The translations under genes were made by a program, and so were the position numbers. 64,000 bases of DNA from Pedobacter kyungheensis (lineage in GTDB: Bacteria > Bacteroidota > Bacteroidia > Sphingobacteriales > Sphingobacteriaceae), in assembly GCF_000812965.1 (NCBI RefSeq), contig NZ_JSYN01000019.1:62001-126000 (forward strand), given 5' to 3'. Positions 18,325-49,596 of this stretch are shown here, piece after piece. The notes under the pieces are model-generated. The model was given only the letters and a program-made list of their open reading frames with translations. It did no database searches and was not told the origin of the DNA. Numbering within the stretch: position 1 is the stretch's first letter; each line of letters begins with the position of its first letter.

Positions 18325-18885
18325 TTATGCTATGGCCAGGTTTTCCAGTTGCTCCTCTTCCAATCTTTTTAAGAGATCAGGTACTTCATTCCAATGGTTT
18401 ACCCTTTGATGATGATCTTTTTCCACGTTGTGAAATGCAGTAAACATTAAAGGTTTTCCTTTGCAGAAATCGAGGTTTTTGCAATGATCGTCAATTAAAT
18501 AATCGGTATCGATAATGCTTTTGTCGCCACAAAAAATAATATTTCTCCAGCCAATAAAAGGGAAGTGTTCTGCCAGCCATTCGCGTTTTTCAAATAACGA
18601 TAAGGGGAATTCCATTGCAGCCGAAACAATGTAAATTTCATAATCTTCCATTAGTTTCTTTACGGTTTCAACAGCACCTTCCATCAGGGGTAAGTTTCTG
18701 AAAAAGCCTGCTTTATTGCAGATTTTCATCACCATTTCGCGGTCTGGAAAAAGTTCTTCTTCCGATTTGCCTTTAATTTCATCGCGGCTAAGTACAATGC
18801 CGGTTTCAGCAGCATACGATTGTAATATGTGGTCTTCTATATCCGCGAGTACGCCATCCATATCAATGCCTATTGTTCTTTTCAT
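18325..18885 (-). CDS. 5'(3')-deoxyribonucleotidase (HAD superfamily)
   Basis: The 186-residue protein opens with the HAD motif I pattern DMDGVLAD (nucleophile Asp8, acid/base Asp10). It contains IVSAAMEFP (motif II Ser near 93) and DTDYLIDDH (motif IV), as in the NT5C family, which dephosphorylates deoxynucleoside monophosphates in the cytoplasm. Its length fits that family. It is divergent from a DeoR-type regulator, and three copies of a 16-bp palindrome fill the 96-bp gap, so it is very probably controlled by that regulator. The sequence does not fix the exact substrate. Confidence 0.88.
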   Translation of the reverse strand: MKRTIGIDMDGVLADIEDHILQSYAAETGIVLSRDEIKGKSEEELFPDREMVMKICNKAGFFRNLPLMEGAVETVKKLMEDYEIYIVSAAMEFPLSLFEKREWLAEHFPFIGWRNIIFCGDKSIIDTDYLIDDHCKNLDFCKGKPLMFTAFHNVEKDHHQRVNHWNEVPDLLKRLEEEQLENLAIA

Positions 18886-18904
18886 GATTTGCTATATTTT
18901 GCAA

Positions 18905-18936
18905 CAAAAATATTTAATATTGCAATATATTGCAAA
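18905..18936 (-). promoter_or_regulatory. Promoter of the deoxyribonucleotidase gene
   Basis: On the minus strand TTTG (18933-18936), 20 bp, then TATTTTTG (18905-18912). The outer operator begins right after the -7 box, so bound regulator would cover the start site. Confidence 0.55.
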
Positions 18937-18964
18937 TTTGTTTTCATTTAAAATGTTATATTTG
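18937..18964 (+). promoter_or_regulatory. Promoter of the DeoR-type regulator gene
   Basis: TTTG (18937-18940), 16 bp, then TATATTTG (18957-18964). The spacing is a little short of the usual 17-23 bp. The operator at 18962 overlaps the -7 box. Its -33 box is back to back with that of the divergent promoter (CAAATTTG). Confidence 0.5.
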
Positions 18965-18981
18965 CAGTATATTGCAATAAT

Positions 18982-19731
18982 ATGGTAAAAGAAGAACGCC
19001 TGCAGGTTATTATCGATACGCTTGAGAAAGACAATAAAGTACGCCTTGACCAATTGAGTAGTTTGCTCAATGTATCAGAAGATACGGTGCGGCGCGACAT
19101 TAAAGAGCTCGATACGCAAGGACTACTCAGGGCAGTTAGGGGAGGGGCTATTGTGCGCTCGCCAAGTCCACAGCATTACCGCGAAAGGGAGAAATATAAC
19201 CAGCAGCATAAACAGGCTATCGCCGCCAAGGCTTTGCAGTTTTTAAAAGACGGCCAGGTGGTGTTTTTTGATGGCGGAACCTCGGTTGTGGCACTCGCTG
19301 CAGCATTGCCAAAAGATTTAAAAATTACCATCATTACCAATAGCTTTCCGGTAGCCAATATTTTAGAAGATCACCCGAGTGCAGAAGTTATATTTGCCGG
19401 GGGAAAACTGCATAAAACTGCATTTACTACCATGGGGCAGGAAACGGTCGATACTTTTAGAAAAGTACGCGCAGATATTTGTATGCTTGGAATTTGCAGT
19501 TTGCACCATAGCATGGGCATTACTTCTATGATTTACGAAGATGCACAGCTGAACAATACGATGATTAGTCAGGCACAGAAAACCATTGCACTTTCTGCTT
19601 TAGAAAAAATTAATACCGTAGAGCCTTATTATGTGTGCCCTGTTACTGATGTGGATGTAATTATAACCGAAACCGAGCCGGATAATGCGGCATTGGATGC
19701 TTACAGGCATTTGGGGATTGAAGTAGTTTAA
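18982..19731 (+). CDS. DeoR/GlpR-family transcriptional regulator
   Basis: The 249-residue protein has the DeoR winged helix at residues 1-57 (ERLQVIIDTL ... VSEDTVRRDIKEL). A sugar-phosphate-sensing DeoRC domain follows (about 75-235) with FFDGGTSVVALAAAL and TNSFPVANIL, the ISOCOT-fold signature that binds a phosphorylated sugar. DeoR proteins usually repress catabolic genes until the phosphosugar accumulates. The divergent deoxyribonucleotidase suggests a nucleoside or deoxyribose-phosphate signal, but this is inference. The ATG lies four bases after the third operator. Confidence 0.9.
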   Translation: MVKEERLQVIIDTLEKDNKVRLDQLSSLLNVSEDTVRRDIKELDTQGLLRAVRGGAIVRSPSPQHYREREKYNQQHKQAIAAKALQFLKDGQVVFFDGGTSVVALAAALPKDLKITIITNSFPVANILEDHPSAEVIFAGGKLHKTAFTTMGQETVDTFRKVRADICMLGICSLHHSMGITSMIYEDAQLNNTMISQAQKTIALSALEKINTVEPYYVCPVTDVDVIITETEPDNAALDAYRHLGIEVV

Positions 19732-49032: not shown

Positions 49033-49596
49033 TTATTTCACCAGGTTTTCGAGCACTTTTTTTTCTATATCCTTATCGTTTAGTAAAAGTGCCGAAAACT
49101 GCGGATCGGATTTCACCAGCAGGAATTTTCCGGTAGGAAGGATAATGGCAGAGGTACCGCAGGTTGTTACCTCTTTAAAGAACATCTTTTTTAAAAAGCC
49201 TGAATCGGTTTCTATTTCGAGGCCTTTCGATTTTACCTGACTAAAGTTTTCGCCCACCTGGCGGTATTGGTATATGGCCACTTTAGGCCTGGCCTGTGCT
49301 TTTTCCTGGATGTTTTTTTGGAAAGTCCACCTTACATTGTTTAAAAACTCGGCATTTTGGTAACTCAAATCTCTCCAACAGGCATCATTATTAAAATCGT
49401 ATTTAATAATGATGGTGTCTTTAAGGGCTACACGCTGGTTTTCTTTAAGGTAAAGGTGTAGTGAATCTACCTGAGCATCGGTTAATGATCCGGCTTCGTA
49501 ACGTTTACTTTCATCTACATAGAGCTTGGGTGAACAGCTGTAGATAAACGTAAGCAGAGAAAAAAATACAAATATCGACGATTTTAAGGATTTCAT
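49033..49596 (-). CDS. Lipoprotein downstream of a TPR gene
   Basis: The 187-residue product starts at ATG 49596 (MKSLKSSIFVFFS) and has a lipobox-like FIYSC with Cys near 21. The remaining part is unfamiliar: an N-terminal strand and helix, then VRWTFQKNIQEKAQARPKVAIYQYRQVGE and ILPTGKFLLVKSDPQF. The database-style longer reading to 49668 overlaps the gene upstream. It lies 31 nt after the TPR gene, so they form an operon. Function unknown. Confidence 0.7.
   Translation of the reverse strand: MKSLKSSIFVFFSLLTFIYSCSPKLYVDESKRYEAGSLTDAQVDSLHLYLKENQRVALKDTIIIKYDFNNDACWRDLSYQNAEFLNNVRWTFQKNIQEKAQARPKVAIYQYRQVGENFSQVKSKGLEIETDSGFLKKMFFKEVTTCGTSAIILPTGKFLLVKSDPQFSALLLNDKDIEKKVLENLVK

Follow-up and report, generated by a model that had tools for sequence, protein, structure and literature searches.

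The 96-bp gap between the divergent start codons of deoR and nt5c (positions 18886-18981) carries six TTGCAA-like units, and we think it probable that it is a local autoregulatory array, in which the adjacent DeoR-type protein would bind the turn-phased units and repress both genes until a metabolite releases it. The units, their helical phase, their conservation, the synteny and the overlap with promoter elements are observed directly. Positions refer to the window, that is, the whole stretch of 64,000 nucleotides that was analyzed.

Results

Array layout and chance expectation

The earlier note on this DNA had described three 16-bp operators in the gap. The three copies are indeed there, 31 and 42 bp apart as claimed, and only the centre one matches TTGCAATATATTGCAA exactly (Table 1). 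TTGCAA is its own reverse complement, and the 16-bp palindrome is therefore nothing more than two TTGCAA units placed 10 bp apart. In other words, the copies are real, but the elementary unit is TTGCAA and the 16-bp operator is divisible. The six units in the gap follow each other in steps of 10, 21, 10, 32 and 10 bp.

Table 1. Coordinates of the genes, operator copies and promoter boxes at the deoR/nt5c locus
Feature	Position	Strand	Description
nt5c	18325..18885	-	NT5C-type (5'(3')-deoxyribonucleotidase) HAD phosphatase, 186 aa; proposed target
Left copy	18889..18904	.	TTGCTATATTTTGCAA, 2 mismatches to TTGCAATATATTGCAA; units 18889 TTGCTA and 18899 TTGCAA
nt5c -7 box	18905..18912	-	TATTTTTG; -33 TTG at 18933-18935, spacer 20 bp
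Centre copy	18920..18935	.	TTGCAATATATTGCAA, 0 mismatches, perfect palindrome; units 18920 and 18930
deoR -7 box	18957..18964	+	TATATTTG; 19 close relatives all share its first 5 bp
Right copy	18962..18977	.	TTGCAGTATATTGCAA, 1 mismatch to TTGCAATATATTGCAA; units 18962 TTGCAG and 18972 TTGCAA
deoR	18982..19731	+	DeoR/GlpR-family regulator, 249 aa; proposed array binder

A chance origin of the array is ruled out by Markov simulations and by the density of units across the window. Per Mb, sites with ≤2 mismatches number 1.5 in Markov sequence matching the composition of the window and 82 in one matching that of the gap; a triple within 96 bp did not occur in 2 Mb of Markov sequence of either composition. 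The densest other spot in the 64-kb window has ≤3 TTGCAA-like units per same span, compared with six in the gap.

Conservation and helical phase

The nearest locus is that of P. soli DSM 18609, whose DeoR is 99.6% identical. Among the 19 close relatives (DeoR identity >80%, window included), 17 have exactly the same set of steps, and in the remaining two a single unit falls under the detection threshold while the rest stay in register. No indels were found inside the array in these 19 sequences; the gap of 95 bp seen in some of them results from a one-base length change beside the nt5c start, outside the array. Letters are conserved at ~96-98% in the copies and at 74% in the linker 18936-18956, the length of which is constant across all 19 despite its variable letters. 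Loss of the copies or of their spacing in close relatives had been named as evidence that would speak against the operators; no copy and neither spacing has been lost there.

The divergent deoR-nt5c pair extends across Sphingobacteriaceae and Flavobacterium, down to ~44% DeoR identity, and the array accompanies it in nearly all relatives; homologues with no clear array are few (it is weak in L044 and absent from L084). We compiled a non-redundant set of 33 deoR-nt5c regions, mostly from Sphingobacteriaceae and with Flavobacterium included. Their gaps hold on average 4.9 units each, against 0.24 in shuffles, and 63 of the 73 steps between adjacent units measure exactly 10 bp, in keeping with DeoR-family operators that repeat at one turn (10-11 bp).

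The larger gaps between units, up to 60 bp (n=54), measure 18-23 bp in 39 cases, 28-33 bp in 13 and 42-43 bp in two, with clusters at 19-23, 30-33 and 42-43 bp. They are strongly phased (Rayleigh R=0.76 at 10.5 bp, phase +0.3 bp), with a p value of ~3e-14 that overstates independence, since the loci are related; none of 20,000 control sets, in which the 54 gaps were shifted by up to 5 bp, reached this R. For the gaps above 25 bp alone, which are 15 in number and likewise come from related loci, R=0.72 (p ~5e-4), and 15 of 20,000 jittered sets were as high. Much of the phase signal stems from the two-turn class of 19-23 bp, which dominates the larger gaps, and gaps of 28, 29, 30 and 31 bp form a minority that fits whole turns less well. 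The periodogram by itself does not fix the period, since the predominance of gaps of about two turns produces a broad peak near 11 bp. On the DeoR tree, distances of ~21, ~32 and ~42 bp alternate between several branches, i.e. they change by about one turn. Thus, the suggested check of phasing in orthologous regions came out as expected: distant relatives have changed the distances and mostly kept the whole-turn phase.

Gene neighbourhoods

At one locus (L118), a different HAD phosphatase takes the place of nt5c, and the array still lies beside deoR. Two others (L058 and L060) have an extra reading frame, DUF1569-like by eye, between nt5c and the array; since this frame starts at the array, what the array accompanies is the divergent promoter, not nt5c. 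DeoR homologues of 42-47% identity at L119, L120 and L121 are divergent from a gene for a beta-lactamase-family hydrolase (Pfam match on L119), without nt5c, and show GCA repeats at ~10, 20 and 31-43 bp; in L119 the homologue also lies upstream of a glucosamine-6-phosphate-isomerase-like gene. A DeoR-family paralogue from the same genome (35% identity; L066:1400-1535, contig C10 ~49,150-49,234) is divergent from a SusC-like gene and has tandem GCAA repeats upstream in 10-bp steps (TTGCAAAAACACGCAAAAACACGCAA). Whole-turn GCA repeats were not seen at the distant GlpR-like paralogue L067.

Dyads or direct repeats

The units might also be read in another way, namely as GCAA/TGCA direct repeats rather than palindromes, each 10-bp unit being contacted by one winged helix, so that the protein would line one face of the DNA as a filament-like assembly. 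Such a reading is a version of our main model, compatible with both phase and autoregulation, and we regard it as a real, although not the leading, possibility. The wider DeoR relatives and the same-genome paralogue speak for it, as both have GCA repeated directly at 10-11, 20-21 and 31 bp and no good palindromes. So do the motifs of the DeoR-family regulator RhaR, which are two direct repeats (PMC3870299), and the tandem runs of three to four units at 10 bp that, along with single units, occur in our relatives. A strict model of one dimer per 16 bp accommodates neither such runs nor single units. On the other hand, conservation in isolated pairs from the 33 non-redundant loci is symmetric about the centre: the outer letters (TTGC..GCAA) are kept in 188/204 cases and the inner ones in 163/204 (p=0.0005), and the 5' TT and 3' AA do not clearly differ (p=0.09). 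This pattern fits a dyad that may be read by a dimer. Given symmetric pairs in some places and single units or longer runs in others, we keep both models, with the dyad being favoured for P. soli.

Promoter elements

The Bacteroidota -7 box, TAnnTTTG, occupies -12 to -5 (PMC9723704), and from this placement we infer transcription starts near 18969 for deoR and near 18900 for nt5c. The outer copies had been said to meet the two -7 boxes. The first 3 bp of the right copy are the end of the deoR box, and the copy also spans the predicted deoR start. The left copy abuts the nt5c box on its downstream side, from about -4 to +12 relative to the start predicted for nt5c. In many of the 33 non-redundant relatives, a CAAAnnTA box is again accompanied by a unit at an identical offset. 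Two back-to-back -33 boxes separated by the centre copy had been described as well. The nt5c -33 TTG (minus strand) in fact lies inside the right end of the centre copy, and the candidate deoR TTG (18938-18940) is weak and not conserved; the description is only half right, because the spacer of the latter is short (16) and its position falls within the variable linker.

This arrangement invites a simpler explanation, in which three independent, non-cooperative 16-bp operators each block a separate promoter element and the phase arises incidentally from the positions of the -7 and -33 elements. Two copies touch -7 boxes, one holds the nt5c -33, and the units contain TTG/TTTG, which are promoter letters too, a fact that counts against the array explanation. 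However, the offset between the -33 and -7 TTG of nt5c is 28 bp and not the whole-turn 31/32, and promoter spacing is thereby rejected as the sole cause of the phase. Moreover, gaps between units vary among relatives (10/21/32/42 bp) and yet keep the phase, and extra runs of units occur outside the promoter boxes. We therefore consider independent operators unlikely and retain the phased array.

Genome-wide search

The earlier note had also proposed a genome search for the palindrome. Every other site with ≤2 mismatches falls within an ORF, and no intergenic site at this level was found elsewhere in the genome. The TTGCAATATATTGCAA cluster is thus unique in the genome, and its control appears to be local, since no other such site is intergenic; a dispersed regulon is rejected at the same threshold. 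A looser search (≤3 mismatches) returned 85 places, compared with 34 for a reversed control pattern. Three copies of the 15-mer TTGCAATAAATGCAA are present in the genome (C6:53752, C14:2493 and C20:150080), and it is perhaps part of a dispersed repeat.

Because the array is beside deoR and other intergenic sites are lacking, the adjacent DeoR-type protein is the obvious putative binder. The genome does encode further DeoR-family proteins, and binding by the adjacent one is a prediction from sequence, but a different regulator is very improbable, as the units travel with deoR across genera and intergenic copies with ≤2 mismatches are absent elsewhere in the genome.

The regulator and the phosphatase

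The deoR product combines an N-terminal HTH_DeoR domain (PF08220, E 5.4e-15) with a C-terminal DeoRC sensor domain (PF00455, E 1.4e-40), both above cut-off, which places it in the DeoR/GlpR family. It scores 105.7 bits against the model of E. coli DeoR orthologues (NCBIfam NF007961), for which the equivalog cut-off is 244, and so the regulator of the window is not DeoR in the strict sense. Its predicted fold (mean pLDDT 90.5) has E. coli DeoR (7l6l) as the best PDB match, and the sensor domain of this predicted structure matches both E. coli DeoR and ribose-5-phosphate isomerase; a phosphosugar ligand is therefore likely. The nt5c product matches PF06941 (E 2.8e-36), the NT5C domain.

Discussion

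The binder, repression, cooperativity and ligand are what we infer from these sequences. The DeoR-type protein would bind the TTGCAA units, which the whole-turn distances of the array bring to a single face of the helix. It would do so as dimers on the 16-bp pairs, which would probably be joined into a higher oligomer through their phosphosugar-sensing C-terminal domains. The bound protein would cover the nt5c start and -33 region together with the deoR -7/start region. With both promoters covered, nt5c and deoR are proposed to be repressed together. A (deoxy)ribose phosphate or a related phosphosugar would most likely release the repressor and so induce the phosphatase.

One may tentatively extend this to a clade of Bacteroidota DeoR proteins, although we hold the extension with some doubt. 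Its operators would be arrays of short, self-complementary units at integral turns, in which the number of units and of turns evolves freely through gain, loss and whole-turn shifts; in other words, they would follow a phase-constrained grammar with no fixed site. Dozens of orthologous promoters with varied spacing and kept phase provide a natural test set for the classical view that repressors cooperate only from sites on the same face. In addition, the locus links an uncharacterised conserved Bacteroidota DeoR-type regulator to a nucleotide phosphatase, which suggests that the levels of (deoxy)nucleotides or phosphosugars are regulated.

In the open-access literature we found neither a report of this pairing of deoR with a nucleotidase gene nor one of a DeoR operator with the sequence TTGCAA. 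DeoR-family operators built of direct repeats at 10-11 bp are already known, and the array is a variation on them. Operators of RhaR from Chloroflexales, Rhizobiales and others consist of two imperfect direct repeats with 10-11 bp periodicity and serve local regulons (PMC3870299). The periodicity and the local regulon are shared, whereas the arrays described here usually have 3-7 palindromic units, two promoters and whole-turn gaps. The SorC-family DeoR and CggR of Bacillus subtilis have two half-operators joined by a tetramer via sensor domains (PMC11229326), but SorC is another protein family, with operators of 39-45 bp and other sequences. In E. coli, a single DeoR oligomer of 6 to 8 subunits bridges three operators, deoO1, O2 and OE (PMC4217526, PMC8053113). 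The locus resembles this system in protein family, sensor-domain fold (7l6l), three operators and a relation to deoxynucleoside metabolism. It differs in that the E. coli sites are separated by ~300 and 600 bp and work through looping, whereas the present array fits within 96 bp of a divergent, presumably autoregulated promoter and uses hexamer units of another sequence. The locus thus joins a RhaR-like periodicity to the three-operator theme of E. coli DeoR at short range.
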